Origin: Streptantibioticus parmotrematis
GTDB lineage: Bacteria > Actinomycetota > Actinomycetes > Streptomycetales > Streptomycetaceae
Length of the DNA: 64,000 nucleotides
NCBI RefSeq assembly: GCF_019890615.1
Contig: NZ_JAINVZ010000015.1
Location: forward strand, 62,001 to 126,000
Direction: 5' to 3'
In this document: in pieces, positions 26,717 through 45,659 of the stretch
Numbering within the stretch: position 1 is the stretch's first letter
Layout: every line of letters starts with the position of its first letter
The notes under the pieces: generated by a model
What the model was told of the DNA's origin: nothing
What the model saw: the letters and a program-made list of their open reading frames with translations, nothing else
Database searches by the model: none
Program-made: the position numbers and the translations under genes

Positions 26717-28303
26717 GTGATAGAGCCATCGGCCTCCGCCCCCGTATCGACGGGACGGCACAGCGCCCGCAAACCTTCGGCCGGCGCGCGCACACCGTCG
26801 GCGGTGCGCGGCGCCGCCTTGGGCGCGGCCGTGGTCGGTGGCGGATGGGCGCTCTGCGGGCTGCACGTCACCTCGGCAGGCGGGGCGATCCTGAGCGCGT
26901 GCGCTGGAGCGGGCGCCGTGCTGGCGTGGGCCGCCGCGCGGTCACGATCGGCGGCCGGCAGCCCCGTCCCGCCGCCACCGGTCGAAGAGCCGCACGACGG
27001 TGAGTCGTTGGAGCAGGCGGTGCTGTTGGCCACGGTCGCGGGCAGTGACCACATCCGGTGGGCGCTGGATCAGGTGGCGACGGGCCGGGCGAACACCGGA
27101 TTCGAGCCGCTGGAGCAGCTCACGCTGAGCGGTGATCCACAGGGCGACGCGCTCGCCGCGGTGCGGTTCCTCGACGGTCAGGCGTGGCGGGCGGTGCTGT
27201 CCGCAGCGGCGGACCGGCAGCGGGCCCTGGAGCCGGGGGCTGAACTCGGCGAGTTGCTGCGGACGTTCGTGCCGCGCCTGCAGTTGCTGGTCGAGAAGGC
27301 GATCGCGGTCGCCTCCGGGCTGGAGGCGGAGGTGGAGGACCCGGACGTGCTCCACGGGCTCTTCGGTGCCGACCACCTGCTAACGCAGATGCGCCGAGCC
27401 ACACAGAATCTGGCGATCCTCAGCGGCAGCCTTCCCTCCCGTTCCGACCCGCCGATGCTGATCGCGACGGTCATCCGTTCCGCGATCTCGGAGATCGGAG
27501 AGTACGCGCGGGTGCGCCACGCCCTGCGGCTGGTCGATGACGCGCTGCCGGGATACGTCAGCGTCAGCGTGACGCATCTGCTCGCGGAGCTGATGGAGAA
27601 CGCCACCCGCTACTCCAGTGACGTGGTCGAGATTCACACGCGCCGAACTCCACACCACGGCGTCGCCGTCGAGATCACCGACCGCGGACCGGGCATGTCC
27701 GAGGCCAAACGCACGGCGCTCAACCGGCTGCTGGCCGAACCAGAGCGCGAGAACCCGTGGCAGCACCTGCGGGAGGGCCGGCTCGGGCTGCTGGTGGCGG
27801 CCAAACTCGCCCAGCGGTACCGGATCCGCATCGAGCTGCACCCCAGCATCCTGGGCGGCATCACCGCCACCGTGCTGCTGCCGCCCGAACTCCTCGTCCC
27901 CGGCGACCGTGTCCCCCAGCCCGCGCCCGTGCCAGAACCTGCCACGGCAACCGTCACGCAGGTCACGCCGACACAACCTCGTCCGTCCGCGGGCCTCATA
28001 CCGCCGCCTGCCGAGCCCGGCCCGCCGCACCAGTCGGCGCTCCTGCCCCGGCGAGTCCGGCACGACCCGCCCACCAGGACCGTGGGCGAACCCGCCGGTT
28101 CGGCCCGTCCTGCCTTGCCGACCCGCCCGGTCACCGGGCCCGCCGCACCGGCCTGGGACGAAGGCGCCCGCGCCGGCGGACCGCTGAGACGGCCGAGCGG
28201 CCAGCTGATGGCCGAGTTCGGTGCCGCCTCATCCCATGCGGCCGGGCCGACGCCGTCGAAGGACGGCCCGTCGGCCGCATCCCACCCCACCACTCAGGAG
28301 TGA
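26717..28303 (+). CDS. Conservon sensor histidine-kinase-like protein (CvnA type)
   Basis: 528 residues from a GTG at 26717 with GAGG eight bases upstream. Two hydrophobic segments (about 31-52 and 55-75) anchor the N-terminus, with almost no extracytoplasmic sensor loop, much smaller than most CvnA sensors. A dimerisation helical region (about 100-250) precedes a HATPase domain: HLLAELMENATRYSSDVV (N-box), VEITDRGPGMSEAKR (G1) and GRLGLLVAAKLAQRYRI (G2). The C-terminal 130 residues are Pro/Ala-rich. It heads the gene set for roadblock, DUF742 and GTPase proteins, which defines a conservon. In known conservons this complex acts at the membrane in G-protein-like signalling. No phosphoacceptor His is obvious. 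Confidence 0.87.
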   Translation: MIEPSASAPVSTGRHSARKPSAGARTPSAVRGAALGAAVVGGGWALCGLHVTSAGGAILSACAGAGAVLAWAAARSRSAAGSPVPPPPVEEPHDGESLEQAVLLATVAGSDHIRWALDQVATGRANTGFEPLEQLTLSGDPQGDALAAVRFLDGQAWRAVLSAAADRQRALEPGAELGELLRTFVPRLQLLVEKAIAVASGLEAEVEDPDVLHGLFGADHLLTQMRRATQNLAILSGSLPSRSDPPMLIATVIRSAISEIGEYARVRHALRLVDDALPGYVSVSVTHLLAELMENATRYSSDVVEIHTRRTPHHGVAVEITDRGPGMSEAKRTALNRLLAEPERENPWQHLREGRLGLLVAAKLAQRYRIRIELHPSILGGITATVLLPPELLVPGDRVPQPAPVPEPATATVTQVTPTQPRPSAGLIPPPAEPGPPHQSALLPRRVRHDPPTRTVGEPAGSARPALPTRPVTGPAAPAWDEGARAGGPLRRPSGQLMAEFGAASSHAAGPTPSKDGPSAASHPTTQE

Positions 28304-28305
28304 TC

Positions 28306-28752
28306 ATGGCTGATGGACAGAGCACGCCGGGCCGGGCCCGCGACCAGCTCTCGGGACTGCTGACACAGCTGACCGGCCGCGTTCCCGGGATGACTCATGC
28401 CGCGCTCACCACCGGCGACGGGCTGCTGGTGGCGGCCTGCGACGCCTGCGACAAGGACACCGTGGACCGGCTGGCGGCGAGCACCACCGGCATCTACTCG
28501 CTGGGAGGTGCCAGCTTCCAGGGCCTGCCCGGCGGCGTGCGGCAGATCGTGATCGAGCACGACGCGGGCTGCCTGTTCGTCATGGCCGCCGGGCTCGCCG
28601 GCGGCGCGGCGGTGGGCACGATCCTGGTGGTGCGGACCACGCCGGAGGCGGACGCGGGACTGGTCGGGCACCTGATGACCGAGTTCATCCGGGGCCTCGA
28701 TGAGCACCTGGTCGTCGCCGCCCGGCGCAACGACACCTACAGCCTCCGGTGA
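28306..28752 (+). CDS. Roadblock/LC7-domain conservon protein (CvnB type)
   Basis: 148 residues from an ATG at 28306 (CAGGAG five bases upstream), two bases after the sensor stop. The roadblock/LC7 fold pattern is visible across the whole length: LLTQLTGRVPGMTHAALTT, GLLVAACD, DRLAASTTGIYSLGG, VRQIVIEHDAGCLFVMAAG, VGTILVVRTTPEADAGLVGH. Such proteins regulate Ras-like GTPases; in conservons the B protein modulates the D GTPase. It overlaps the DUF742 gene by four bases (GTGA), consistent with stoichiometric co-expression. Confidence 0.9.
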   Translation: MADGQSTPGRARDQLSGLLTQLTGRVPGMTHAALTTGDGLLVAACDACDKDTVDRLAASTTGIYSLGGASFQGLPGGVRQIVIEHDAGCLFVMAAGLAGGAAVGTILVVRTTPEADAGLVGHLMTEFIRGLDEHLVVAARRNDTYSLR

Positions 28753-29114
28753 CCGTGCGCCCAGGGTGGTCCGGGGCCGCGTTAGGCGAGGTCCGCCCCT
28801 ACACGGTCACCCGGGGCCGGACCCGCCCGCACCACCACCTGCTGCTCACCACCCGCCTGGCCGGACACGCCCCCGGAGCGGCGGTCGCGCTGGCGACCCC
28901 CGAGCACGAGGCGCTGCTGCGGCTGTGCCGCGCGATGCCGTACTCCGTGGCCGAACTGGCCGCCCGGCTGCGGCAGCCGGTGCAGGTGACCAAGATCATC
29001 GCCGCCGACCTCCTGGACTCCCGGGCCCTCATCCTGCTCGGCGTCGGCGGCAGCCCCCAATCCCCCGACAGATCCATGCTGGAGGCAGTGCTCGATGGTC
29101 TACGACGGCTGTGA
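28749..29114 (+). CDS. DUF742 conservon protein (CvnC type)
   Basis: 121 residues, GTG at 28749 overlapping the roadblock stop. The DUF742 signature is present: VRPYTVTRGRTRPHHHLLLT, LATPEHEALLRLCRAMPYSV, AELAARLRQPVQVTKIIAAD, LLDSRALILLG. The winged-helix-like C-terminal half (SVAELAARLRQPVQVTKII) is typical. CvnC proteins are required scaffold components of the conservon complex, though their biochemical role is unclear. It overlaps the GTPase gene by 20 bases. Confidence 0.9.
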   Translation: MTVRPGWSGAALGEVRPYTVTRGRTRPHHHLLLTTRLAGHAPGAAVALATPEHEALLRLCRAMPYSVAELAARLRQPVQVTKIIAADLLDSRALILLGVGGSPQSPDRSMLEAVLDGLRRL

Positions 29115-29691
29115 GACGACATCGGAGCCGGCGGCGTTGAAGATCCTGGTGGCCGGGGGGTTCGGGGCAGGCAAGACCACGCTGGTCGGCGCGGTCAGCG
29201 AGATCGAACCGCTGTCCACCGAGGCCGTCATGACCGACCGCAGCACCGGCGTCGACGACCTGCGGGGCCTTGAATCCAAGACGCGCACGACGGTGGCGCT
29301 CGACTTCGGCCGCATCACCTTCGACCACCCGATCCCCATGATCCTCTACCTGTTCGGGACACCGGGCCAGACGCGGTTCCGGTTCTTGTGGCGCGACCTG
29401 GGCCAAGGGGCGATCGGCGCCGTGGTGCTGGTCGACACCCGCCGCCTGCAGGACTCCTTCACCGCCATCGGCTGGGCCGAGGCGCACCGGCTGCCGTTCG
29501 TCATCGGCATCAACGAGTTCGAGACCGACGCCCACCGCTACACCCCGGACGAGGTCCGCGAAGCCCTGCGCCTGCCGCCGGCCGTGCCCGTCCTGACGTG
29601 CGACGCCCGGCGGCGAGACCGCGTCACCGGCCTGCTGATCGCCCTGGTCGAACACCATCTGCACCGCCTTGCCACGGGAGCCTTGAGATGA
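29095..29691 (+). CDS. Ras-like conservon GTPase (CvnD type)
   Basis: 198 residues. P-loop GGFGAGKTTLVGAVSEIEP (G1, about 21-39); switch region Thr in KTRTTVALDFGRITF (G2); LFGTPGQTRFRFLW (G3, DxxG variant GTPGQ); GINEFE (N-x-E variant of G4, in place of NKxD) at about 140-145; then TCDARRRDRV (G5 area). This set, with GTPGQ and N-x-E/F, is typical of the conservon ATP/GTP-binding protein family. It is the output switch of the conservon. Its stop overlaps the GAF gene start (ATGA), so the GAF protein is probably a functional partner. Confidence 0.9.
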   Translation: MVYDGCETTSEPAALKILVAGGFGAGKTTLVGAVSEIEPLSTEAVMTDRSTGVDDLRGLESKTRTTVALDFGRITFDHPIPMILYLFGTPGQTRFRFLWRDLGQGAIGAVVLVDTRRLQDSFTAIGWAEAHRLPFVIGINEFETDAHRYTPDEVREALRLPPAVPVLTCDARRRDRVTGLLIALVEHHLHRLATGALR

Positions 29692-30384: not shown

Positions 30385-31584
30385 ATGTCCGACGCCTATT
30401 ACCTCACTGAGAAGCACCGTGCCCTAAGACAGGAGGTGCGCGAGTTCGCCGAGAAGCGGATCGCTCCGCACGTGCCGCGGATGGAGGCCAGCGCGGCGGT
30501 GGAACATGATCTCGTGCGGGAGATCGCCCGCCGCGGCTGGATCGCCGTCACCGTCGCCCCACGCTACGGAGGGATAGGCGCCGGGCACCTGGCCCGAATG
30601 CTGGTGGTGGAGGAGATCTCCCGGGTCAGCGCGGCCATGGGCGCGGCAACTCAGGCGTCCCAGCTGGGCGTGGCAAAGATCATGCGCTACGGCACCTCGC
30701 AGCAGAAGCACCGATGGCTGCCGAAAGTGGCGTCCGGCGAGTGCCTGCCGACGATCGCGGTGACCGAACCCGGCTCCGGCAGCCACGTACTGGGCATGGA
30801 AGCCACCGCCCGGCGGACCGGCAAGCACTACGTACTCAACGGCTCGAAGGTGTTCGTCGGCAATTCGCACATCGGCGACGTGCACGGCGTCGTCGCGCGG
30901 ACCGCCGAGGGATCGAAGGGGTTGACGGCGTTCCTGGTTGAGGCCGACCGCTCCGGCCTCACCATCGTCGAGCACCCCACCACGCTGGGCCTGCGCGGCT
31001 TCTCCTTCGGCGAGTTGCGACTGGACAACTGCCGTATCCCGGCCGGCAACAGGATCGGTGCCGAAGGCCAGGGCCGAGACGTGGCCTACTCCTCCAGCAT
31101 CCTGTACGGCCGCCCCAACTTGGCCGCAGTGGCCCTCGGTCTGCACCAGGCCGTCATGGACACCACCGTGAACCTGTGCCGGGAGCGCACCCGCTACGGC
31201 GCTCCGCTGCACGAGCTGGACACGGTCCGCGACAAGGTCGGCCGGATGCAGTCGGCGCTGATGACCGCCCGCCTGACCGCCTACCACGCAGCCGCCCTCC
31301 TCGACCGGCAACGCTGCCGCATCACGCACCCCTGTGACGACGCGTTGATGAACGCCAAGCTCGTGGGCGTGGAACTGCTGCTGGACTCCGCTCGCCTCGC
31401 GATGGAGATCCACGGCGCCGCCGCCCTGACACCCGGGCGGCCCATGGAGCGCTACTGGCGCGACGCCCAGTGCCTGTTCGCCCCGGCGGGCACCAGCGAC
31501 ATCCAGCGGCTGCGGCTCGCCGCATACGCACTGGGCCTGGACGACCGCCACTACTCCGCACCGTCCCACCCCCCGCCCGCCTGA
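30385..31584 (+). CDS. Acyl-CoA dehydrogenase-like flavoprotein lacking catalytic Glu
   Basis: 399 residues, the usual ACAD length. N-terminal helices (EKHRALRQEVREFAEKRIAP), the FAD-contacting strand region (LPTIAVTEPGSGSHVLGMEA, about 117-136), KHYVLNGSKVFVGNSHIGDV and the C-terminal helical domain (RERTRYGAPLHELDTVRDKV, EIHGAAALTPGRPMERYWRD) are all present. The segment that normally reads (Y)EGTSEIQR reads PAGTSDIQR, so the catalytic base of short/medium-chain enzymes is Ala. The alternative Glu of isovaleryl/long-chain enzymes is not seen in the ILYGRPNLAAVALG helix either. A non-dehydrogenase role, such as flavin oxygenation in a biosynthetic cassette, is likely. It follows the GAF gene by 58 bp and may join the conservon transcript. 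Confidence 0.87.
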   Translation: MSDAYYLTEKHRALRQEVREFAEKRIAPHVPRMEASAAVEHDLVREIARRGWIAVTVAPRYGGIGAGHLARMLVVEEISRVSAAMGAATQASQLGVAKIMRYGTSQQKHRWLPKVASGECLPTIAVTEPGSGSHVLGMEATARRTGKHYVLNGSKVFVGNSHIGDVHGVVARTAEGSKGLTAFLVEADRSGLTIVEHPTTLGLRGFSFGELRLDNCRIPAGNRIGAEGQGRDVAYSSSILYGRPNLAAVALGLHQAVMDTTVNLCRERTRYGAPLHELDTVRDKVGRMQSALMTARLTAYHAAALLDRQRCRITHPCDDALMNAKLVGVELLLDSARLAMEIHGAAALTPGRPMERYWRDAQCLFAPAGTSDIQRLRLAAYALGLDDRHYSAPSHPPPA

Positions 31585-31932
31585 GCGACGAGCCGCGCCG
31601 CCCCGCGCTCGCCCGCCCGAGCCTGACGCGCGAATGGACCGATTGCCATGCTGGATCAACCACCGTCCCCACCGAGGCCCCCGCTCACGCGGGTGCGGCC
31701 CTTCCGCCTGACGCCCACCGAGACCCAGCTCGCGCAGCGGGCGCAGCCGGAGAAACCCGCGATCGCCGCGGACCTCGGAACCCCCCGGGGCCGTCGGCCA
31801 GCGTCTGCTGCGGATCGAGGTCTTCACGGCCCATGACGCCGGCGCGAGCACCGGCAACAAGCCGCCGCCGACCACACCACCGTGCCCGCCCCCCTTGCGG
31901 ACAGACCACCGCCACCGTGCTTGGAGAAGTCG
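31585..31932. other. Intergenic stretch before TPR regulator
   Basis: About 350 bases, Pro/Arg/Ala-coding in most frames as GC-rich noncoding DNA tends to be. A 62-codon frame from ATG 31648 has no ribosome site and no recognisable content. No clear promoter or hairpin stands out, though a promoter for the regulator and radical SAM cassette probably lies here. Confidence 0.4.
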
Positions 31933-33195
31933 ATGACCAACCGTCACGCCACGGCCTACGAGAGCCTGCCGCGGCCCACCCGCGCGGTATGCCGGATCCT
32001 CACCGAGCTGCCCGTCCCCGATCTCGACGAGCTAATGACCGCGGCCTCCTGCAACGTGAGCCCGCAGCGCGCTCGTTACCACCTCGCACTCCTTCGGGGC
32101 CGGGGTCTGCTGAAGGTGACACACGGCGATCCGCCCCCGCTGCGGAGGCGTTGCCTGGGATTCCCCGCCGGCGCCGCCGACGCGATCCGGGAGCGCACCG
32201 CACACGAAGACCCTGAGGCTCAGCGAGAAGGCGTCCGACGGCTACTGGACTTCCTGCTGGCACAGGCCAGCGCCGCGGAACGCCTCCTGACACCCACTCA
32301 CCGCCCGTTGCCCCGCGACATCCGCTACCCACCCGCGTACCCGCAGCGATTCTCGGACCTGGCCAAGGCTCTCAGGTGGCTGGAGAGTTACACCGCCATC
32401 TACACCAGTGCCCTGCGCGCGGCAGCCGGGTTGGGCGAGTACGCCATGACCTGTCAGCTCGCTCACGCGCTGTGGCCGCTGCTGCACCTGCGCAACCCGG
32501 AGCCGCTGAGGGAGATCGCCGACACCCTCGGCCTGGAAGCCGCCCGCCGTACCGACGGGCCCGAAGGACGCCTCGCCCTTCGGGAAATGCTCAACTCCTA
32601 TGGCGTGGGCGAGCGGACCCGGGGCCGGTACCGCAGCGCCATCACCGCGACCACCGAGGCCCTGGGGCTGGCCCGGCAGGACGGAGACCGGCTCAGTGAG
32701 GCCCAGCACCTGCATGATCTCGGCGTCGCGCAACGCGAGTGCGGCGACTTGGAGCCCGCGCGCGAGCACCTGGAAGCCGCCCTCGCGCTGCGCCGGGAGC
32801 TGGATTACACCCGCGGCGTCGGCCTGACGCTGCTGGAACTCGGCCACACCCGCTGTGAAGATGCGCCGAGGCGGGCGATGAGCCTGCTCTTCCAGGCCCA
32901 TCACATCCTCACCGGCGTGGACGACCCGTTTGACGCGGCCCGCGCACATGCACTGATCGGCCGCGCCGTACTGGCCTGCGGTGACCAGCGCGACGCGGCC
33001 GGCTTCCTGCAACAGGCCCTGGAAACCTACAAGGCCCTGGGCATCCCCGACGCGAACCCGTGCTGTATCCAGGCCCGCGACCTGCTCGCCCAGACCCACG
33101 ACACTGGCGCGCAGCCCTCGTTCCCGCAACAGCCGAAGCCAGCTCAAGCCGACTCGGGAGCAGACGACTCGGTCCGTCCGCGCCCCGAGATCTGA
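31933..33195 (+). CDS. Winged-helix/TPR putative regulator
   Basis: 420 residues from the ATG at 31933 with GGAGA six bases upstream. The N-terminus (about 13-80: RPTRAVCRILTELPVPDLDE, RARYHLALLRGRGLLKV) looks like a winged helix DNA-binding or ArsR-like domain. The rest is helical repeats of TPR type: GRYRSAITATTEALGLARQ, LSEAQHLHDLGVAQRECGDL, ARAHALIGRAVLACGDQRDA, AGFLQQALETYKALG. No nucleotide-binding domain is present, unlike SARP/AfsR proteins. It precedes a Cys-rich mini-protein and the radical SAM gene on the same strand, 79 bp upstream of the first, suggesting a cluster-specific regulator. A sequence fragment with similar TPR units lies at 38.6 kb. Confidence 0.75.
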   Translation: MTNRHATAYESLPRPTRAVCRILTELPVPDLDELMTAASCNVSPQRARYHLALLRGRGLLKVTHGDPPPLRRRCLGFPAGAADAIRERTAHEDPEAQREGVRRLLDFLLAQASAAERLLTPTHRPLPRDIRYPPAYPQRFSDLAKALRWLESYTAIYTSALRAAAGLGEYAMTCQLAHALWPLLHLRNPEPLREIADTLGLEAARRTDGPEGRLALREMLNSYGVGERTRGRYRSAITATTEALGLARQDGDRLSEAQHLHDLGVAQRECGDLEPAREHLEAALALRRELDYTRGVGLTLLELGHTRCEDAPRRAMSLLFQAHHILTGVDDPFDAARAHALIGRAVLACGDQRDAAGFLQQALETYKALGIPDANPCCIQARDLLAQTHDTGAQPSFPQQPKPAQADSGADDSVRPRPEI

Positions 33196-33274
33196 CAGTC
33201 CAGCTGCTGCAGCCACCCCAATCCCGTCCCGCTTCGGCATTTACCTACCTTACCGATTCCCCAAGGAGAAACGC

Positions 33275-33508
33275 ATGTCAGAAAAAAGCCGGTGCCCCGT
33301 TACCAACAAGCGGAGTTTCCCAAGCTATGAATCGGCCAGTGCTTTTCTTCTCGAAAAGGCGCAACAGCACGGCGGAGCCCCGATATCCGTCTATTCTTGT
33401 GAACACTGCGAGGGGTTCCATACTTCCACAAAGTTCACGACACGCGCGGCCAGGAATCGAGGTGGCGGAATGCATCGGGCACCCAAGAAGCACTATCGGC
33501 GCAGGTGA
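33275..33508 (+). CDS. Cys-containing mini-protein (77 aa), putative zinc binder
   Basis: ATG at 33275 with a strong AAGGAG six bases upstream. The sequence has CPVTNKRSFPSYESASAFL at the start and VYSCEHCEGFHTSTKF in the middle: Cys8, then C-x-x-C plus His, a plausible zinc knuckle. The C-terminus is strongly basic (KKHYRRR), suggesting nucleic acid contact. Similar small zinc-ribbon proteins are frequent on mobile elements. It sits between the TPR regulator and the radical SAM gene, so it could also be an adaptor or substrate protein of that enzyme. Codons are less GC-biased than its neighbours. Function unassigned. Confidence 0.75.
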   Translation: MSEKSRCPVTNKRSFPSYESASAFLLEKAQQHGGAPISVYSCEHCEGFHTSTKFTTRAARNRGGGMHRAPKKHYRRR

Positions 33509-33531
33509 GATGAGCACGGTACAGGCGTTCG

Positions 33532-33693
33532 CTGGCGCAGCGAACCGGTCAAGGTGTCAATGTTCCGTGGACCGTGGCGCCGGACGGCATCGGCGAGTTC
33601 GGGCGGTCCAGTTCAGGAGCGACCGAACACGCCGGCGTGAATTGCAGGAGACGAGCCAAACCGGAGGAGCGAGTATGGGCGATCGATGCGTGA
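33532..33693 (+). CDS. Possible small peptide gene overlapping radical SAM start
   Basis: Between the mini-protein and the radical SAM gene, a frame different from both is coding-like: GQGVNVPWTVAPDGIGEFG then RSSSGATEHAGVN, with G/C-biased third positions, ending at TGA 33691. It lacks an ATG. A CTG at 33532 has AGG six bases before it, and a GTG lies at 33574. It would overlap the radical SAM start by 19 bases, like a coupled precursor or small subunit. It could equally be the remains of a frameshifted peptide that began at ATG 33510. Low confidence. Confidence 0.22.
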   Translation: MAQRTGQGVNVPWTVAPDGIGEFGRSSSGATEHAGVNCRRRAKPEERVWAIDA

Positions 33694-35825
33694 CCGGGCC
33701 GCTGGAACGGTTAGTGCAAGCTGTGCGGCTGGCCGTGCGCGGAACTGTCGAGACCGACACCTTCTGCCGGCCGGCAGAATCAGTTCTGCTTGATCCGGCG
33801 CTGCTTCGGGAATGGGCCGAGGGGATGCTGCCGGGCGGTCGGCGGATCTGTGTGGCCGGAGCCCTCGATCGTCGGCTCGTGTTCATCCAGCGCGAGCCGG
33901 GTTCGTGGGTCGCAGTGGATCTGTCGGGCCGACCGCATGCCTCTCGTCGCTGGCCGTCCTGGACTCGGGACCAGGTGCGGCTGCACGAGCCCGATTCCTG
34001 GCTGTCGGAAGCCGTGTTGTCCGACGCGGCGGTCTTCCGTCTGACCCGCCCGCGAGTGCTGCTGGCGGCCTTGTACCACCCGGAGTTCTTCCCGCTGCCG
34101 CGGTTTCCGCTGGGGATCAGCGATGTGGCCCGCGCGGCCCGGGCCACCTTGATGGGAACGGTCACCCTGTCCGACATGCAGCTCGGCACCACCGTCGAGG
34201 ACCTGATCAAACAGGTCAGCACCGAACCGCCGGACATCCTCGGGATCTCGGCGACGTTCGGCCAGCACGACCTGCTGATCCAGCTCCTGGACGCGGCCTT
34301 CGCCCTGCGCGAGCCCCCGATGGTGGTGGCCGGCGGCAGCCTCACCGCCCGCAACGAGCAGCTGCTCCTGGAGCGCTACCCGAACCTGCTCGTCGCCCGC
34401 GGTGGCGGCGAGGCCACCATCGAGGCGATGCTGGCGCACTGGCACGGTGACGTTGCGCGGGAGGAGATACCCGGCATCGGCTACACCGGCGCGGCCCGGG
34501 GCGGCGGTCTCGCCGTCGGCCGTCGCCGTACCGCCAGGCCCGTCGCCCGGGACGCCAGCGGTGACATCCTGCCCGAACTCGACCTGCTGCCCGCCACCTT
34601 CGACCATCACGGGGTCGCCCAGCTGGAGACTAGCCGCGGCTGTACCAACACGTGCTCGTTCTGCCCCCGCGGTCATAAGGGCCGCTGGGCCGGCACCCCA
34701 CCGGAGCAGCTCCGGTGGATGCTGTCGCAGATCGGCCAGGTCCTCGACCGCTACCCCGGCGTCTCCCGCACCCTGTACCTGGTCGACGAGGAGATCATCG
34801 GGGGTGGCGCGGACGCCGTCGAGCGGATCCTGCGCCTGGCCCGCGCCCTGCATGAGGCCGGGTTCACCTGGGAGTCCAGCTGCCGTATCGACCAGACCGT
34901 GCGCCTCGACCGCGACGAGAACTGGCACACCGAGCGCGCCGCCATGTGGCGCACCCTCGTGGAACTGGGGCTGCGGCGGATGCTGTTCGGCGTGGAGTCC
35001 GGCGTCGACTCCATCCTGACTCGTTTCAACAAGGAGACGACCGCCCGGCAGAACGCCCTGGCCATCCGCACCCTGTCCGCGCTCAACATCCCCACCCGCT
35101 ACACCTACATCACGTTCGACCCGCTGATGACCCTGGAGGAGCTCAAGGCCACCCACGCCTTCCAGGGGCGCACCGATCTCCTGCTGCGCCCCCAACCCGG
35201 TGTGGACGTGCGGGAGGTCGTACGCGGGGTCCGCGACGAAGGGTGGGCGGCCGCGCACGCGACCGGGCGGCCGCTTCATACCGGGATCAGCTACATGCTG
35301 GTGTCGATGGAGTGCCTGATCGGCGCCGCCTACACCCGGCAGGCAGCCGCCGCCGGGCTGACCGGCCAGGCCGAGCCGCTGATGGGCCGGGTCGCCTGCC
35401 GGTACCGGGACTGGCGGATCGGTGTGGCCAGCCGGTGGGCGCAGCGGTGGGTGGACCGCCACTTCGCGCTCGACTACACCCTCAAGAGCCTGGAGAAGGT
35501 CCTCGACGGCACGCCTCGGGCGGCCGTGCGGCAGGCCCGCGTGGTGCTGAAGAGCGCCGCCTACCAGGTGCTCGGCGACCTGATCACCGTGATCGAGCAG
35601 CATGATCTGCAACAGCCGGGCCGGCAGGAGGAGTTGTCCGGTCAGGCCGAGGCGGCACTGGAGGCGCGGGCGAGGGCGTTACGTGGGCAGATGGCGGAGA
35701 CGGTCGAACAGGTCGGCCACCGGCTGGCCGGGGAGCACGCCGCGATGCTCGCCCGAGAGTACGGCCGATGGCGGTCGGCCACCGGCTGGGAGCTGATCAA
35801 CGCGGGTGAGTCCTGTGCGCAGTGA
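33675..35825 (+). CDS. B12-binding-type radical SAM enzyme
   Basis: 716 residues from the ATG at 33675 with GGAGGAG about five to seven bases upstream; an in-frame ATG at 33510 has a poorer context. Residues about 125-270 form a Rossmann-like cobalamin-binding-type domain (VEDLIKQVSTEPPDILGISA, PPMVVAGGSLTARNEQLLLE, YPNLLVARGGGEATIEAML) without the classical D-x-H-x-x-G motif. The radical SAM core follows, with CxxxCxxC in TSRGCTNTCSFCPRGHKG (about 316-333), then LYLVDEEIIGG, FTWESSCRIDQTVRL, LRRMLFGVESGVDSILTRFN and YTYITFDPLMTLEELK. A helical C-terminal extension of about 150 residues follows. The architecture suits methylation, ring formation or other difficult chemistry on a small molecule or peptide. 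It is the core enzyme of the cassette; the substrate is unknown. Confidence 0.9.
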   Translation: MGDRCVTGPLERLVQAVRLAVRGTVETDTFCRPAESVLLDPALLREWAEGMLPGGRRICVAGALDRRLVFIQREPGSWVAVDLSGRPHASRRWPSWTRDQVRLHEPDSWLSEAVLSDAAVFRLTRPRVLLAALYHPEFFPLPRFPLGISDVARAARATLMGTVTLSDMQLGTTVEDLIKQVSTEPPDILGISATFGQHDLLIQLLDAAFALREPPMVVAGGSLTARNEQLLLERYPNLLVARGGGEATIEAMLAHWHGDVAREEIPGIGYTGAARGGGLAVGRRRTARPVARDASGDILPELDLLPATFDHHGVAQLETSRGCTNTCSFCPRGHKGRWAGTPPEQLRWMLSQIGQVLDRYPGVSRTLYLVDEEIIGGGADAVERILRLARALHEAGFTWESSCRIDQTVRLDRDENWHTERAAMWRTLVELGLRRMLFGVESGVDSILTRFNKETTARQNALAIRTLSALNIPTRYTYITFDPLMTLEELKATHAFQGRTDLLLRPQPGVDVREVVRGVRDEGWAAAHATGRPLHTGISYMLVSMECLIGAAYTRQAAAAGLTGQAEPLMGRVACRYRDWRIGVASRWAQRWVDRHFALDYTLKSLEKVLDGTPRAAVRQARVVLKSAAYQVLGDLITVIEQHDLQQPGRQEELSGQAEAALEARARALRGQMAETVEQVGHRLAGEHAAMLAREYGRWRSATGWELINAGESCAQ

Positions 35826-35886
35826 ACCGCGCCGGGCCCCGGCGCCCCGCCGCGCGATCGCGGTCGGGACGTGCCGGGCTGCTCGG

Positions 35887-36519
35887 TCAGGTACCGGTCT
35901 TCTCCGGGATCGGCACCCAGTCGAACTCCGGGCAGAACCTCGCGTAGGTGACGAGCTTCCAGGCCGCGTACTGCTCGGTCCGGCCCGAGCTGCGCAGCAG
36001 GTGCTTGACCCAGGTGTGCGCGATGCGCTCCTCCAGCGTCATCGTCTGGTCGATCCGGTCGAGCATCCGGCAGGCGACGGCGAAGTCCTCGACCGTCAGC
36101 GCGCTCAAGTCGATCTCGATGCCGTCCACGGTGAAGGAGAAGACCAGCCGGGAGGTCGAAAAGCGTGTCTTGCGCTCGCCGAGGAACGTGGTGTGCGGGG
36201 CAAGGGCCGCGCGCAGCCGGTCGCGGTCCTCGACCGGGTAGCCGATGCCCAGGTCCAGGTCGGAGGTCTCCAGGTTCAGCCGGGTTCCGAAGGAGCCGAC
36301 GTCACGGGGCGTATGCCCGGTCCACTTGGTGATCAGCTCGGCCGCCATGGCACGCACCTTCTCCAGGCGCTCGTCGTGGAAGCGCATCTGCTCGTAGAAG
36401 GCGCGGGCGCGCGCGAACTCGGCGTCGGTGAAATCGCCGCGGACCGTCCATCGGCGCTCCAGGATCGAGTTCAAGTCAAGTCCGGTACTGGGGGGTTGTG
36501 TCGTCACGCGAGGCACCAT
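35887..36519 (-). CDS. Nucleotidyltransferase-fold protein
   Basis: 210 residues from the ATG at 36519 with GGGAAG five bases upstream; a GTG six bases earlier is possible. The pol-beta-type signature is clear: DVGSFGTRLNLETSDLDLGI (about 75-95; GS..., then D-x-D), with a third acidic residue in GIEIDLSAL. An N-terminal helical segment (LERRWTVRGDFTDAEFARAR) and a C-terminal helical domain (YAAWKLVTYARFCPEFDWVP) follow the fold. Members add nucleotides to RNA, proteins or small molecules such as aminoglycosides. It is the only leftward gene in the cassette and converges on the radical SAM gene, with 61 bp between stops. Substrate unknown; it may also be an antitoxin-like MNT protein. Confidence 0.85.
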   Translation of the reverse strand: MVPRVTTQPPSTGLDLNSILERRWTVRGDFTDAEFARARAFYEQMRFHDERLEKVRAMAAELITKWTGHTPRDVGSFGTRLNLETSDLDLGIGYPVEDRDRLRAALAPHTTFLGERKTRFSTSRLVFSFTVDGIEIDLSALTVEDFAVACRMLDRIDQTMTLEERIAHTWVKHLLRSSGRTEQYAAWKLVTYARFCPEFDWVPIPEKTGT

Positions 36520-36581
36520 ACTCACTTCCCGAGACGATTCATCACTGTTTGCTGGGAATTGAGAGGAAGAGGGTACTTCTT

Positions 36582-37682
36582 GTGAGTGCTTCGCCGTCCC
36601 TGCCGCGCCGCACCCTCGCGCGTGGCCTGTCCGTCCACCCGGTCGGTATCGGCGGCTGGGCCCTAGGCGGCCCGGACACCAACCTCGGCCTGCCCATGGG
36701 CTGGTCCACCGCCGACGACACCGCCTCCCGCCACGGCCTGGAAGCCGCCCACGAACTCGGTGCGAACCTCATCGACACCGCCGACGTGTACGGGCACGGG
36801 CACTCCGAGCGGGTCATCGGCGACTTCGTCACCACCATCAACCGGGACACGGTGGTGCTGTCGTCCAAGGTCGGCTACCACCGGGGCACAGCCCGGCACG
36901 CCTACCTTCCCTCCGCGATGCGCCGCCAGCTGGAGACCACGCTGGAGAACCTGCGCACCGACCACCTCGACATCTACTTCTTCCACAACGCCGACTTCGG
37001 GCAGGACGACCGCTACCTGGAGGCGGCGGTCGCGCAGATGCGCGACTTCCAGCGCCAGGGCCTGGTCACCGCGGTCGGGATGCGCGGCCCGCACCGCTAC
37101 GCCACCGAACGGGTCACCGTCGCCAAGCAGGCGCGCGGCGACAAGTACGCCCGGTTCGCCCACCTCGCCGAGATAATCCGCCCCGACTACCTCGCGGCCC
37201 GCTTCAACGCCCTGACCCCGCAACCGGCCGCCGGACGCCCGGACGTCTTCGCCCTGGCCGCCTCGTACGGAGCGAGCGTGCTGATCAACAAGCCGCTGGC
37301 CCAGGGGCTGCTCACCGGCAAGTATGACCCGCACCACCCTCCCCTCTTCGGAGCCGGTGATCACCGGCTGCGCAAGGCGTGGTTCACTCCCGACGCCCTG
37401 AAGATCATCCACAGCGGACTCGACCCGCTGCGGGAGCGCTTCGGCGACACCCCGGCGGCACTGACAAGGGTTGCGCTGCAGTACTGCCTGCAACAGACCG
37501 ACAACGCGGCTGTCCTCGTCGGGTTCACCCGTCCCGAGCAGGTCACCGCCAACCTGACCGCCATCGGCACCCCGCTCACCGACGACGAACTCGGTTTCGT
37601 CCGCGAAACCCTCGGCCGCCTCCAGCGCACACTGGATGCCCACAGCGAGGTGTTCCTCGACGAGAAAGGCACCGGGCAATGA
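36582..37682 (+). CDS. Aldo/keto reductase
   Basis: 366 residues from a GTG at 36582; GAGAGGAAGAGG lies about 10-20 bases upstream, and no better start exists. The catalytic tetrad is visible: Asp and Tyr in IDTADVYGHGHSE (about 62-74), Lys in VVLSSKVGYH and His in DIYFFHNADFG. The cofactor-binding end includes ALQYCLQQTDNAAVLVGFTRPEQV, typical of NADPH contacts in AKRs. It starts divergently from the nucleotidyltransferase with 62 bp between starts, and its stop overlaps the EEP gene (ATGA), so those two are a translational unit. It probably reduces a carbonyl or imine intermediate of the cassette's product. Confidence 0.9.
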   Translation: MSASPSLPRRTLARGLSVHPVGIGGWALGGPDTNLGLPMGWSTADDTASRHGLEAAHELGANLIDTADVYGHGHSERVIGDFVTTINRDTVVLSSKVGYHRGTARHAYLPSAMRRQLETTLENLRTDHLDIYFFHNADFGQDDRYLEAAVAQMRDFQRQGLVTAVGMRGPHRYATERVTVAKQARGDKYARFAHLAEIIRPDYLAARFNALTPQPAAGRPDVFALAASYGASVLINKPLAQGLLTGKYDPHHPPLFGAGDHRLRKAWFTPDALKIIHSGLDPLRERFGDTPAALTRVALQYCLQQTDNAAVLVGFTRPEQVTANLTAIGTPLTDDELGFVRETLGRLQRTLDAHSEVFLDEKGTGQ

Positions 37683-38506
37683 CCGCCGGCCAACTGTCCC
37701 TGACCGCCGTCGAGGCGGTGCGGCTAATGCTGTTCAACGCCCAGCACGCCTCCCCGGACCGCTCCCGCCGCCAGGCCGAATGGATCGCCGCCCAGGAGAT
37801 CGCCGACATCGCCGTCCTGACCGAGGTCTCCTCCACCGGCGGCGGCGACGCCCTCACCACCGCGCTCGCCGACCGCGGGTACGCCACCGTGATCGCACCA
37901 CAGCCGCCCACCCGCGACTACCGCACCGTCATCGCCTGCCGCACCCCCAACGCCCAGCCCGTACCGAGCCCGGTGACCGTCACCCCGCACCGCGCCCCGG
38001 CCGCCCGGATCACCCTCGGCGACCACCACGTCGGCGTCCTGGGCCTGTACGTCCCCTCCCGCGGCCCCCGGCAGCACCGCAACGTCGCCAAACGCGCCTT
38101 CCAGAACGCCGTCACCAAGGCCCTGCCGCAACTGCACGCCCTCTTCCCCGCGATGCCCGTGATCGTCGCCGGGGACCTCAACGTCATCGAGCCCGGCCAC
38201 CAGCCCCCGCACAAGGTCTTCGGCACGTGGGAATACGACTTCTACAACGCCTTCCCGGCATCCGGGTTCACCGACGCCTTCCGGCACCTCCACCCCGAGC
38301 AAACCGCTCACTCCTGGTACGGGCGCAGCGGCAACGGGTTCCGCTTCGACCACATCCACCTCACACGCACCCACGCTGCCCAGATCACCGCCTGCGACTA
38401 CCACCACGAACCCCGCGAGAACGGGCTGTCGGACCACGCCGCCATGACCCTTCAACTCCGCCTGTCCGGCCCGAGCACGAGAGCGAGCCCGCCCCCGGAG
38501 GGCTGA
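37679..38506 (+). CDS. Endonuclease/exonuclease/phosphatase (EEP) family protein
   Basis: 275 residues, ATG overlapping the AKR stop. EEP-fold motifs: LMLFNAQHASPDRSRRQAEW (N in strand 1), IADIAVLTEVSSTGGG (catalytic Glu), ITLGDHHVGVLGLYVPSRGP, MPVIVAGDLNVIEPGHQPP (D-x-N), FRFDHIHLT and LSDHAAMTLQL (D-H pair). All metal-binding residues of the family are present, so it should be active as a phosphodiesterase, nuclease or phosphatase. Next to a nucleotidyltransferase, this could make and break a nucleotidyl intermediate. It is the last gene of the cassette; the substrate is unknown. Confidence 0.88.
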   Translation: MTAGQLSLTAVEAVRLMLFNAQHASPDRSRRQAEWIAAQEIADIAVLTEVSSTGGGDALTTALADRGYATVIAPQPPTRDYRTVIACRTPNAQPVPSPVTVTPHRAPAARITLGDHHVGVLGLYVPSRGPRQHRNVAKRAFQNAVTKALPQLHALFPAMPVIVAGDLNVIEPGHQPPHKVFGTWEYDFYNAFPASGFTDAFRHLHPEQTAHSWYGRSGNGFRFDHIHLTRTHAAQITACDYHHEPRENGLSDHAAMTLQLRLSGPSTRASPPPEG

Positions 38507-39467: not shown

Positions 39468-39938
39468 ATGCCAGAGATCCCTGAATCAACTCAGCACTCT
39501 CAGACCCTAGCGCAGAAGCTAACACGCCTTAGGGAGCTAAAGGCCCCCAGAGGGGGGCGCCCCCCTTCCTACGAGGTCATTGCACGCGAGATCAGCGCTA
39601 CAGGAGTGAGTATCTCAGCTCCATATATTTGGGAATTGTGCACCGGAAAGACGACCACGCCGAAGACCAGCCACCTCGAAGGTCTAGCTAGGTACTTTGG
39701 CGTACCGGTCTCCTATCTTATAGACGACGAAGTAACCAAGAAGCTTGACCCGCAACTAAGCTTTCTTGAGGAACTGAAGGATAAAGGGGTTTATGATATC
39801 GCAGTGCAACTCACTCAAGGACATGAACTCTCATCATCTAGCTTGGAAACATTGAAGACCATGATTGAACAGCTGCAAAACCTGGAGGGCAGGGGATTCT
39901 CTACTGAGGTCCGGGAGGAACAGCAACCAGAATCCTGA
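39468..39938 (+). CDS. XRE/EspR-like helix-turn-helix regulator
   Basis: 156 residues from an ATG at 39468 with AAGGG five bases upstream. The helix-turn-helix (about 12-85: LAQKLTRLRELKAPRGGRPP, YEVIAREISATGVSISAPYI, WELCTGKTTTPKTSHLEGLA) has a long insertion and resembles the EspR/SutR-type DNA-binding domain of Actinobacteria (GxxTxPxxxxLxxLAxxFxV). The C-terminal half is helical (LSFLEELKDKGVYDIAVQL) and may dimerise. Codon usage is notably AT-rich compared with everything around it, marking it as recently acquired. It is placed between the cargo and the integration module and may regulate the element. Confidence 0.8.
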   Translation: MPEIPESTQHSQTLAQKLTRLRELKAPRGGRPPSYEVIAREISATGVSISAPYIWELCTGKTTTPKTSHLEGLARYFGVPVSYLIDDEVTKKLDPQLSFLEELKDKGVYDIAVQLTQGHELSSSSLETLKTMIEQLQNLEGRGFSTEVREEQQPES

Positions 39939-40106
39939 GAGATTCTCTTCGAGCCAAATTGGGTTCTCGGCGTGACATCCCGGCACGGTGCCCATCGGCG
40001 GTTATCACTGAGCGGCCTCGGACGGCGCGCAGACGGCCCAGCCCAGCGCCCCTCCTCGCCCCACCATACCGAACACACTTTCGATACAGTGGGCAAGAAG
40101 GTGGTG

Positions 40107-41129
40107 ATGATGGTGGAGCGCGAGCGGGTGATCATGCACGTGCGCTGTCCCCGCGAGGTGACGGAGGACGCCTACCACGAGGTCGTCGAGTTCCTCGGCT
40201 CGTTGACCCCGGTCGTGCAGGCCCTCCCGCCGGCCGCAGTGCTGGCGGACCTGACCGGGGCTCTGCGGTACTGGCGAGCCACTCCTCTCCAGCTGGCGCG
40301 TCGAGTCCGGCTGACCACTCTGGCTCGCTACGCGGTGGACACCCGCGTCGGCATCGGCCCTTCCCCCGCGGTGGCGGCGATGGCCAGCGGATCGCCCGAC
40401 CGCGACGGCATACGGATCGTGACGGGCGCCGACGCCGCGCAGGCCATCGCTCCGCTGCCCGTCTCAGAGCTCTACGGCGTCGGCCCGGCCCAGGCGAAAA
40501 CACTGACCGCCTACGGTCTGCACACCGTCGGAGCACTCGCCCAGGTCCCGACCGGCACCGTGCAGCGCCTCCTCGGCGGAAGACTCGGCCGCCAGGCCGC
40601 CGACCGCGCCCGCGGCATCGATCCCCGGCACGAACTCGACCGCAACGGCCGCGCGCGCACCGCCCTGTTGGACACCGTGGTGACCGTCGCCAGCAGACTG
40701 CGCCAACGCCGCCAGGTCGCGGGCGCACTCAGCGTGCACGTCGAGTGGGTCGGCAACGCGGCTGCGATCACACGAACCCGGACTCTCGCCGAACCAACCG
40801 CGCACACAGAAGAGCTTCGCGTCGCCGCCTACCAGCTCTGGGACGGCCTGGGCCTCCAGAGAGCGCGGATCGCCGCACTGTCGGTACGGGCCGAACGCCT
40901 CACCGACGGCGCCGCGGCGGCCCACCAGATGACCCTGGACGGCGCCCGCGAACGACTCTGGCGGGCGGAAGCCGCGATCGATCGTGCCAACCGGCGCTTC
41001 GGCGCGAACACCGTGCGGCCCGCCCGCCTTGCCCACAGGCCCATGCAAGAGGCCGCTGACCCGGGCCAGGACGGCGGCAGGCTGGGCGCTACCGAAGACG
41101 CAACGGCTCAGCGTCACGAAGAACCCTGA
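40107..41129 (+). CDS. Y-family DNA polymerase-like protein without catalytic palm motif (ImuB-like)
   Basis: 340 residues from the ATG at 40107 with AAGG five to six bases upstream. It starts where a Y-polymerase palm is half complete; the segment aligning with SIDE-A-x-L-D-x-T-G reads PPAAVLADLTGALRYW, so the catalytic Asp-Glu are missing, and the N-terminal D-x-F-x-x-x-E part is absent. What remains is GIGPSPAVAAMAS, helix-hairpin-helix thumb (ELYGVGPAQAKTLTAYGLHT, VGALAQVPTGTVQRLLG, GIDPRHELD) and a little-finger domain to about 305. Such proteins resemble ImuB, a non-catalytic partner in mutasomes. It may tune repair or mutagenesis of element DNA. No DnaE2-like partner is present here. 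Confidence 0.8.
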   Translation: MMVERERVIMHVRCPREVTEDAYHEVVEFLGSLTPVVQALPPAAVLADLTGALRYWRATPLQLARRVRLTTLARYAVDTRVGIGPSPAVAAMASGSPDRDGIRIVTGADAAQAIAPLPVSELYGVGPAQAKTLTAYGLHTVGALAQVPTGTVQRLLGGRLGRQAADRARGIDPRHELDRNGRARTALLDTVVTVASRLRQRRQVAGALSVHVEWVGNAAAITRTRTLAEPTAHTEELRVAAYQLWDGLGLQRARIAALSVRAERLTDGAAAAHQMTLDGARERLWRAEAAIDRANRRFGANTVRPARLAHRPMQEAADPGQDGGRLGATEDATAQRHEEP

Positions 41130-41256
41130 CCCAGGAGCCTCGCCCGCCGCGTGCGTTGCGATGGAAGCCTCGGCGCACGGCTGCCCGAGCCTGATGGCCC
41201 GGGGCGCCAACTCCTTCCCTGGATCTCCAACGACCAGGGGCGACAACAACCCGGTG

Positions 41257-42309
41257 ATGCCCTACCGTGTGGCGATGATTGTCCTGGATACCAACCAGCT
41301 GGAACATGTTCAACCGCCCCACGGGCCGGGGTTGGCCATGCTGCGTACGATCGCGCGCGAGACCGGGCATGAACTCGCCCTGCCGGAGATGGCGTTCGAG
41401 GAACACCTCGCGCACATCCACCACCGCGTACAGAAAGCCGAATCCAAGATCACGGGCGGGATCAACGAGCTTCAGCGGCTCGCGCCCTTCTGGCCCGGTA
41501 ACGTCTCTCCGCTCCCCGGCGACCACGTGCTGCGGAACCATCGCGATGAACTAATGAAGATCTTTCGCGTCCTGCAAACCCCAGACGGCGTCGCACGCGA
41601 GGCCCTGCTGCGTGAAACCCAACGCCGCCTGCCAGCCGCCGGCTCCTGGGAGCTGCCAGGCACCGGTGGCCGCGATGTCGCGATCTGGCTGACCGCTCTC
41701 GACGAGTGCCGGCAGTCGGGAATGAAGATGTACTTCGTCTCCATGGACAAGAACGCCTTCGGCGGCCCCACCCTTCATCCCGAGCTGCGTGAGGACATCA
41801 CCAAGGCTCTCGCCGGCCGCGCCGAGCTGTTCCACTACTGCAACGGCGTAACCGCCCTACTGGAAGAACTTGCCGAAAAAAGGCAAAACCGGCTCACTAA
41901 GAACCGTGTAGCGAAGTCCCTGCCCGTCCGCGACGCCCTGACCGCCCTGGGCACCGGTCACGAGTTCCGCATGGAGCTGATCGACGCCGCTGGCCTTGCC
42001 AATGTAACCGTGGCCTCCGGTCCCGAACTTGATCACCTGGAACTGACCAAGCTGGAGCACGAGACCTCCTATCAACTCGGCGATTCGGCCTGGGCGACGG
42101 CACGTGCGACCTGGCAGGCCGCGAAGCACATCACGGCGTCCTGGTTCGGCACCCATGGGCAAGACATTTCGATCACACACGAGGTACAAGTGGTCTTCAC
42201 CGTGACCACCACGTTGCTCATGCAACTGGACGCGACAGGCGCCATCACCGCAGCAGAGATCGCAGCGCGAACCCGCTGTACCAACATCACCTCGAACATC
42301 GTGCGCTGA
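41257..42309 (+). CDS. PIN-like (DUF4935-type) ribonuclease-fold protein
   Basis: 350 residues if the ATG at 41257 is used; the ATG at 41275 gives MIVLDTNQLEHV, the canonical PIN start, and neither has a strong ribosome site. Acidic PIN residues: Asp in VLDTNQL, Glu in MAFEEHLAHIH and Asp in SMDKNAFGG, the last preceded by IWLTALDECRQSGMKMYFVS. The C-terminal half (about 200-350) is a separate beta-rich domain (HEFRMELIDAAGLANVTVAS, EVQVVFTVTTTLLMQL) of unknown role. Large PIN-like proteins of this sort occur on mobile elements and may be abortive-infection or stress RNases. No antitoxin gene is adjacent. Confidence 0.75.
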   Translation: MPYRVAMIVLDTNQLEHVQPPHGPGLAMLRTIARETGHELALPEMAFEEHLAHIHHRVQKAESKITGGINELQRLAPFWPGNVSPLPGDHVLRNHRDELMKIFRVLQTPDGVAREALLRETQRRLPAAGSWELPGTGGRDVAIWLTALDECRQSGMKMYFVSMDKNAFGGPTLHPELREDITKALAGRAELFHYCNGVTALLEELAEKRQNRLTKNRVAKSLPVRDALTALGTGHEFRMELIDAAGLANVTVASGPELDHLELTKLEHETSYQLGDSAWATARATWQAAKHITASWFGTHGQDISITHEVQVVFTVTTTLLMQLDATGAITAAEIAARTRCTNITSNIVR

Positions 42310-45136: not shown

Positions 45137-45152
45137 CCACCGCAGCGCGAGG

Positions 45153-45180
45153 GTGAGCGGCCCTTGGAACGGCTGCTCAC
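45153..45180 (+). terminator. Hairpin after integrase
   Basis: GTGAGCGGCC (45153-45162) pairs with GGCTGCTCAC (45171-45180) over ten pairs, one of them G-U, with an 8-base loop, 17 bases after the integrase stop. Probable terminator of the excisionase-integrase transcript. Confidence 0.7.
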
Positions 45181-45182
45181 CT

Positions 45183-45204
45183 GATTCGACCCCGATTCGA
45201 CCCC
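45183..45204. repeat. Tandem 11-bp repeat at element end
   Basis: GATTCGACCCC is repeated head to tail at 45183-45193 and 45194-45204. It lies between the integrase terminator and the rnpB terminator, where the attachment core or integrase arm sites would be expected. Confidence 0.6.
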
Positions 45205-45227
45205 GGGGGCACACGTTGGAAGGGACA

Positions 45228-45253
45228 CCCCTTCCGACCTGGGCCGGAAGGGG
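45228..45253 (-). terminator. rnpB terminator hairpin
   Basis: CCCCTTCCG (45228-45236) and CGGAAGGGG (45245-45253) form a perfect 9-bp stem with an 8-base loop, immediately downstream of the rnpB 3' end on the minus strand. Confidence 0.8.
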
Positions 45254-45261
45254 TGGGGCAG

Positions 45262-45659
45262 ACGACCCGTGCTGTACGCCGGGTTCTGTCTCCGGGGGAC
45301 CTCGCGGTCCGCCGGGAGGCGGTCATCCATCTAGGGCCGACGTTGCCGCCGGCCTCGTGCGGTCTACCCGCGGACTCGGGCGGGCAGCCCTCGAACATCC
45401 GCGCAGGACGCCCTGGGGCGTCCCTCTTGACCTTGCTCCGGGTGGGGTTTACCTAGCTGCCCAGGTCACCCTGGGCACTGGTGGTCTCTTACACCACCGT
45501 TTCACCCTTACCGGGGACCGAGGTCCCCGGCGGTCTGCTTTCTGTGGCACTTTCCCGCGGGTCACCCCGGGTGGGCGTTACCCACCACCCTGCCCTGTGG
45601 AGCCCGGACGTTCCTCGGCAGGACCGGATGTCCTGACGCGACCGCCCGCACGACTCGTC
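45262..45659 (-). ncRNA. rnpB: RNase P RNA (bacterial class A)
   Basis: On the minus strand the sequence carries the hallmark elements: GAGGAACGTCCGGGCTCCA near the 5' end (P4 5' half), GTGCCACAGAAAGCAGACCG, GGTAAGGGTGAAACGGTG, GTAAACCCCACCCGGAGCAA, and AGATGGATGACCGCC followed by GACAGAACCCGGCGTACA near the 3' end. The 5' and 3' termini (GACGAGTCGTGC and GCACGGGTCGTC) pair as P1 with one mismatch. It is the catalytic RNA that matures tRNA 5' ends. A -10-like TAGGAT (minus strand, 45672-45677) lies 12 bases upstream. The intact gene borders the mobile element at its 3' end. Ends are estimated from P1. Confidence 0.96.

Follow-up and report, generated by a model that had tools for sequence, protein, structure and literature searches.

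Ring contraction of the sugar in 2'-deoxyadenosine nucleotides, via a strained [2.1.0] bicycle, is catalysed by the cobalamin-dependent radical S-adenosylmethionine (SAM) enzymes OxsB and AlsB, and oxetanocin A and albucidin are the sole oxetane nucleosides reported from nature (PMC13331322). The same source describes an aldehyde intermediate in the oxetanocin route, for which a non-specific alcohol dehydrogenase was reported to be needed, the removal of phosphates by OxsA, and the lack of the OxsB N-terminal domain in TokK and TsrM (PMC13331322). According to a second report, two radical SAM genes are essential for albucidin, the thymidylate kinase and pyruvate phosphate dikinase genes of the albucidin region are dispensable in a heterologous host, and aldehyde reduction is not encoded in the oxetanocin A cluster (PMC7074753). 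Here, we describe a locus of Streptantibioticus parmotrematis that encodes an OxsB-like enzyme together with a candidate reductase. The DNA analysed, hereafter the window, is a stretch of 64,000 nucleotides (positions 62,001 to 126,000 of NZ_JAINVZ010000015.1), which is part of contig C7 of a 7.4-Mb genome consisting of 83 contigs. The genes in question, located at positions 33675–38506 of the window, probably constitute a mobile four-gene unit for the synthesis of an oxetanocin/albucidin-type metabolite derived from a nucleotide (we put the probability of this reading at roughly 0.55).

Gene organization of the unit

Seven open reading frames are present at 30385–38506, i.e. all those listed in a preliminary description of this DNA, which had regarded them as one cassette matching no known pathway. 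The unit itself consists of four of these genes, encoding a radical SAM enzyme, a nucleotidyltransferase (NTase), an aldo/keto reductase (AKR), and an endonuclease/exonuclease/phosphatase-family (EEP) hydrolase, with the following features:

33675–35825, plus strand: OxsB-like cobalamin-dependent radical SAM enzyme, 716 amino acids (OxsB profile, phmmer, Foldseek, and CX3CX2C motif); the gene contains two TTA codons
35887–36525, minus strand: small, putative Pol-beta-type NTase, 212 amino acids (invariant motifs and fold matches), divergent from the AKR gene
36526–36581, no strand: divergent intergenic stretch of 56 bases between the NTase and AKR starts, conserved in nine near relatives (alignment)
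36582–37682, plus strand: AKR (PF00248, 4.7e-40; 29 of 29 loci), candidate reductase of the aldehyde of the OxsB-like enzyme
37679–38506, plus strand: EEP hydrolase, 275 amino acids (PF03372, 7.7e-7), with an ATGA overlap with the AKR stop codon

The unit was limited to these four genes because the three genes preceding them, which encode an acyl-CoA dehydrogenase-like (ACAD) protein, a TPR protein, and a small Cys-containing protein, were without a tblastn match in the vicinity of the relatives examined (E value thresholds of 1e-5, 1e-15, or 1e-4, depending on the locus set). On these grounds, the seven-gene cassette was rejected.

The OxsB-like radical SAM enzyme

When a profile built from 11 homologues was compared with the Protein Data Bank (PDB), OxsB was the sole solved protein matched at an E value of 0.01 (3.9e-96). 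Profile positions 37–619 align to OxsB residues 25–627, and the match spans the N-terminal part and the cobalamin and radical SAM domains and extends into the C-terminal part. With the single window sequence as the phmmer query, the E values were 3.9e-69 for OxsB and 0.0017 for TokK, the latter match being restricted to residues 186–333. OxsB (5ul4) was also the best PDB match of the AlphaFold model in Foldseek (E value, 7.8e-33; TM-score, 0.64), followed by TokK (9.3e-9), and the identity to OxsB in the fold alignment was ∼25%. In Pfam, the gene matched B12-binding (3.8e-7, just below the curated cut-off) and Radical_SAM (4.8e-7). The three-cysteine cluster motif CX3CX2C is present in all 13 aligned homologues, and the first gap of this motif is one residue longer in OxsB itself. 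Judged from the sequence comparisons and the predicted fold, the enzyme is a clear homologue of OxsB, and the earlier statement that no known pathway is matched is not supported for this gene. No AlsB was identified among the database matches of the enzyme. The two TTA codons are confined to this gene, none being found in the other six genes checked; we presume that they would fit bldA-linked control.

Co-inheritance of the four genes

Distinct loci carrying a near-full-length radical SAM homologue with at least 54% identity were counted. This yielded 29 loci, namely the window, L025–L039, L063–L067, L074–L076, L078–L081, and L116, where L067 and L081 were counted though their radical SAM matches are split into two pieces. 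Those left out were L024 (same contig as L033), L077 (40% identity), L108–L111 (no full radical SAM gene), L068 and the plasmid hits H6 and H7 (<30% identity, partial), and the plasmid hit H5 (46% covered by the radical SAM match). An AKR gene was found near the OxsB-like gene at all 29 loci, and EEP and NTase genes were found at 25 and 22 loci, respectively. Based on 21 AKR matches in the 7.4 Mb of the window's own genome, on which alone this estimate rests, ∼0.06 AKR genes would be expected per 20 kb, and the presence of AKR at 29 of 29 loci is therefore not due to chance.

Of these loci, 15 were recruited via the NTase, and the rates free of NTase bias are those obtained from the radical-SAM-driven samples. 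A radical SAM search of the family sample matched 13 of 297 genomes, or 12 after one partial 28% match was set aside; these 12 genomes contain 13 loci, with AKR at 13, EEP at 10, and NTase at 8. A larger family sample (394 genomes, searched with a 13-row profile at E ≤1e-40) returned the same 12 genomes and added none. In the class sample, 5 of 394 genomes matched, including that of the window, and the other four carry AKR (four), NTase (three), and EEP (three) genes. The NTase search identified nine loci in the genome collection, all in Streptomyces. In the family sample, 14 of 297 genomes matched the NTase, seven of them strongly (E < 1e-90; eight loci including the window), and none of the eight weak relatives (E values of 5.7e-23 to 2.0e-5) stands beside an OxsB-like gene. 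All four genes in the same arrangement, with the NTase gene divergent, were found at 15 loci besides the window (one duplicate contig having been removed).

Pairwise identities of the four proteins are correlated over 11 four-gene loci (r = 0.79–0.93), and none of these correlations was reached in more than 1 of 5000 label shuffles. The loci have differing neighbourhoods, and the gene order is at times changed. L116, the one locus obtained from IMG/VR, contains all four genes in the order AKR-EEP-radical SAM, followed by NTase on the opposite strand (its IMG/VR label is insufficient alone to call the contig viral), and in L080, which lacks NTase, the genes are arranged as AKR-EEP-radical SAM. 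The gene set thus survives rearrangement. Three of the loci with at least 54% identity are on plasmids (Streptomyces sp. MMBL 11-1, Streptomyces europaeiscabiei, and Nocardia sp.). The preliminary description had proposed a search for repeated clustering of the radical SAM, NTase, AKR, and EEP genes in other contexts, and the outcome was strongly positive. No report of the four-gene unit was found in the literature searched, a body that leaves out most subscription papers.

At L027, L031, and L033, the radical SAM protein is ∼67–70% identical to that of the window and the NTase and AKR are 82–86% identical, which suggests an exchange of the radical SAM gene within the cassette. At L067 and L081, radical SAM or AKR matches are split in two and these copies are apparently decayed.

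Features of the AKR, EEP, and NTase proteins

The AKR was assigned to PF00248 (Aldo_ket_red; E value, 4.7e-40), and residues D66, Y71, K97, and H136, which we take to be the Asp/Tyr/Lys/His catalytic tetrad, are invariant in 11 sequences. The AKR gene most likely starts at GTG 36582, since the upstream extension holds a stop codon in 11 of 15 relatives. The EEP ATG (37679–37681) and the AKR TGA (37680–37682) overlap as ATGA, as had been noticed earlier, and an AKR/EEP overlap is also present in 10 of the 15 other loci (with starts as chosen by script). The EEP protein belongs to PF03372 (Exo_endo_phos; 7.7e-7), its closest solved relatives being of the ExoIII/APE type. Its residues N20, E49, D166, N168, D252, and H253, presumably those of the metal site, are invariant in 11 sequences.

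The NTase has no Pfam or NCBIfam family at an E value of 0.01, and a comparison of its sequence with the PDB gave no useful match. The protein displays the pattern GS-x-G...SDLDL plus E-x-D-x-S, with G77, S78, D89, D91, E137, and D139 invariant in 13 sequences. The best Foldseek match of its model, which has a mean predicted local distance difference test (pLDDT) score of 81.9, is the terminal uridylyltransferase TUT7 (E value, 4.8e-4), and the top matches in VIA-align are CoaE (Z, 10.4) and GrpB (Z, 9.6), with many NTase-fold chains at Z ≤8.3. The label NTase is thus based on invariant motifs together with middling fold matches of the NTase type. An alignment of 36505–36600 with eight relatives, comprising 96 columns that include both gene starts, showed a mean column identity of 92%.

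Distant NTase relatives (∼30% identity) also occur at L042, L043, and L046 in another recurring gene set. At L042, this set comprises genes for a JmjC-type cupin, an AKR, a weakly APH-like protein, a methyltransferase, and a helix-turn-helix (HTH) protein, and homologues are found at L043 and L046. A relaxase-like gene is located near the L042 and L043 sets. These loci may encode another NTase/AKR pathway carried by mobile DNA.

Genes neighbouring the relatives of the unit

Among the 16 four-gene loci (the window and L025–L039), a family with a weak phosphoribosyltransferase match was found at eight, a HAD hydrolase at seven, and an S-adenosylhomocysteine hydrolase-like protein at six. Phosphoribosyltransferase, HAD, NUDIX, and major facilitator superfamily (MFS) genes are annotated at the locus of MMBL 11-1, and MFS transporter genes are present at several loci. 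At L065 and L066, which are without the cassette NTase, we found a dTMP-kinase-like gene (the NCBIfam score of the L065 copy being below the cut-off) and proteins resembling, by eye, DegT aminotransferases and NTP_transf_6. At the S. europaeiscabiei locus, Pfam or NCBIfam identified a formyltransferase, an NTP_transf_6 protein, and a protein in which dTMP-kinase-like and DegT parts are fused. The Nocardia locus encodes an aminotransferase and a formyltransferase, and L063, L064, and L067 have a CYTH-type protein in common. None of these nucleotide-type neighbours was found beside the window cassette among the proteins scanned. The neighbours of the relatives point to nucleotide chemistry, and the part shared by the loci is the core genes.

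Proposed pathway and alternative explanations

The four genes are best read as a third OxsB-family pathway that has a reductase gene of its own. By homology to OxsB, the substrate of the OxsB-like enzyme would be a (deoxy)nucleotide, most likely one of the purine 2'-deoxy type, whose sugar is rearranged with the aid of cobalamin and SAM-derived radicals to give a ring-contracted, strained aldehyde. The AKR would then reduce the aldehyde to an alcohol, as its constant pairing with the OxsB-like gene and the chemistry of its family suggest. Family chemistry likewise suggests that the EEP protein may remove phosphate, replacing the unrelated HD hydrolase OxsA, and that the NTase may add a nucleotidyl group to the product for tailoring or self-protection. 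With its intact motifs, the AKR could fill the reductase gap of the oxetanocin A cluster, and an AKR gene is present at every locus counted. Of the products envisaged in the preliminary description, a modified small molecule carried as cargo is retained and narrowed to a nucleotide-derived metabolite; nothing was found to indicate that a peptide is the substrate.

Several observations weigh against this pathway. The model of the radical SAM enzyme is of moderate confidence (mean pLDDT, 72.8), and OxsB Asn186 aligns with Thr194, which is invariant in 13 homologues including that of Agrobacterium. Asn186 is described as holding a water molecule beneath the cobalt of OxsB (PMC13331322). Its replacement means that the chemistry may differ from that of OxsB; the feature is described for OxsB itself and may not extend to the whole family. 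The Agrobacterium homologue, which shows 40% identity, has no AKR match within 9 kb. At this locus (L077, 8869–12739, on a plasmid of Agrobacterium pusense), a further radical SAM gene, whose product is of the NF045502 type, comes directly after the OxsB-like gene, together with a NUDIX gene; this layout looks more like the albucidin plan. The roles given to the NTase and EEP proteins are guesses from family chemistry. NTase is absent at 7 of 29 loci, by which an obligatory NTase partner was rejected, and EEP is absent at 4 of 29; at L065, L066, and L076, the EEP protein is distant (31–35% identity) and its gene does not adjoin AKR. Moreover, the class sample (388 genomes) contains eight NTase loci, of which four, in three of seven genomes, are without a complete radical SAM gene beside them, and the idea that the NTase is confined to radical SAM loci was rejected on this basis. 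At L108 and L109, the radical SAM match covers the last 88 residues only, no such match is present at L110, and at L111 the NTase gene is cut and the radical SAM gene is absent. Some genes of the class-sample NTase loci are cut or broken, and L108–L111 are apparently decayed copies. The cassette seems to be dispensable and to have been lost in some lineages.

The replacement of Asn186 by Thr194 beneath the cobalt, the low identity to OxsB (25%), and the varying neighbours, such as the DegT-type aminotransferase and formyltransferase in S. europaeiscabiei and the aminotransferase and formyltransferase in Nocardia, would also fit an enzyme of common ancestry with OxsB that acts on another substrate or catalyses another reaction (methylation or a different rearrangement), with the AKR serving a different carbonyl. 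We regard this explanation as a tentative one that deserves to be kept in mind, but the OxsB match runs from the N-terminal to the C-terminal part and lies far above that of TokK, and several of the neighbours are nucleotide-type enzymes. Within the pathway proposed above, the NTase and EEP proteins might act as a reversible masking pair, in which a finished, toxic product is nucleotidylated by the NTase inside the producing organism and the bond is hydrolysed by the EEP protein on or before export. The divergent orientation of the NTase gene relative to AKR-EEP across a conserved 56-base gap and the invariant motifs of both enzymes are in line with such masking, which nevertheless appears doubtful in view of the EEP genes found without the cassette NTase at L065, L066, L076, and L080 and the NTase found without EEP at L081.

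A role in defence similar to that of viperin, in which a chain-terminating nucleotide made in the cell harms phages or rival elements and the NTase and EEP proteins control its level, would agree with the mobile and plasmid location, the patchy occurrence (12 of 297 family genomes), and the description of oxetanocin A as antiviral (PMC13331322). In a more specific form, an oxetane-type terminator would be made from a normal deoxynucleotide, the AKR would fix the aldehyde, the NTase and EEP proteins would switch the compound off and on, and conjugative elements would thereby protect their host from phages. Against these proposals, no PADLOC family matched the radical SAM, NTase, AKR, or EEP proteins (E value, 0.01), the radical SAM enzyme had no match in 50,697 phage records, and the MFS transporter genes found at a number of loci would suit a metabolite that is exported. 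We therefore consider a defence function unlikely and its specific form a shade more so. The first two of these results also led us to reject a known defence system, and no evidence was found for the defence-like nucleotide signal suggested earlier. Finally, each of the families is common by itself, as the 21 AKR matches in the window's own genome illustrate, and the genes might be chance neighbours from unrelated pathways; with AKR at 29 of 29 loci, rearranged gene orders, and correlated divergence, this explanation is extremely improbable and is refuted for the four genes. A chance neighbourhood fits the ACAD, TPR, and Cys-containing proteins.

Mobile setting and genes outside the unit

The DNA around the unit carries a gene for a TraG/TraD-type coupling protein (7990–9807) and a tyrosine integrase gene (43808–45133) beside the RNase P RNA gene, which was the sole match in an Rfam scan of the window. 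Two sequences, 19 bases from the rnpB 3' end and a repeat of 23 bases, are present both at 43808–45657 (integrase and rnpB) and at ∼1862–2003 of contig C7 (L096), which suggests a possible 105-kb integrative element with rnpB as its attachment site. In an empty-site test with one other genome of the genus, the left end was not confirmed; RNase P RNA was not found in the 10 kb taken at the site to which part of the left flank maps. The mobile setting that had been claimed for the cassette is borne out by the coupling protein, the integrase, and the plasmid copies.

Three of the seven genes at 30385–38506 lie outside the unit:

30385–31584, plus strand: ACAD gene (Pfam), no match near relatives
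31933–33195 (longest frame from 31882), plus strand: TPR protein with a weak N-terminal HTH match (Pfam), no match near relatives
33275–33508, plus strand: 77-amino acid Cys-containing protein, no family, no match near relatives

The ACAD and TPR genes are also labelled by Pfam, and NCBIfam agrees on the family labels; the Cys-containing protein has no Pfam, NCBIfam, or PADLOC family (Pfam at E 0.01). Membership of these three proteins in the cassette, as first described, is not upheld by the relatives. Directly upstream of the ACAD gene (26717–29691), sensor-like, small, and GTPase-like proteins are encoded, pieces of which match near L030 and L031; these genes look like a streptomycete conservon. 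On the 3' side of the cassette (39468–42309) are genes for an HTH protein (weak capH match), a PolY-like frame (labelled by reading), and a PIN-domain protein (PF16289). None of these downstream XRE/HTH, PolY-like, and PIN genes had a match near the OxsB-like relatives examined.

Significance and comparison with known systems

The two OxsB-family enzymes behind the reported oxetane nucleosides have different partners. A third OxsB-family lineage (12 of 297 family genomes) with its own reductase gene would provide a fuller enzyme set for oxetane chemistry, and the cassette would allow the resolution of the strained intermediate to be tested. It would also offer a genomic handle for new nucleoside antibiotics, antivirals, and herbicides.

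The cassette NTase has the catalytic motif of Pol-beta-superfamily NTases and may have their core fold, but it has no Pfam or NCBIfam family at an E value of 0.01, and its fold matches are middling, with CoaE and GrpB on top. The cobalamin radical SAM methylases TokK, CysS, and TsrM have both domains and the same broad fold as the cassette enzyme, but their fold match is far weaker than that of OxsB. The albucidin pathway of Streptomyces albus subsp. chlorinus (AlsB/AlbB plus AlsA/AlbA) resembles the cassette in that an OxsB-family enzyme is encoded in a streptomycete, and genes similar to the kinase and dikinase genes of the albucidin region lie at some relatives of the cassette. The cassette differs in having AKR and EEP genes, whereas AlsA is a second radical SAM enzyme, and no AlsA-type second radical SAM protein was found among the ten window proteins scanned (30.4–42.3 kb). 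An OxsA-type HD hydrolase was likewise not found among these ten proteins, and one YfbR-like HD match is located elsewhere in the genome. Compared with the oxetanocin A pathway of Bacillus megaterium, in which OxsA is an HD phosphohydrolase, the cassette contains AKR, EEP, and NTase genes, and its enzyme has Thr at the position of Asn186 and ∼25% identity in the fold alignment. The oxetanocin A pathway is reportedly plasmid-borne, and it shares with the cassette a homologous cobalamin radical SAM enzyme, a mobile location, and a hydrolase.

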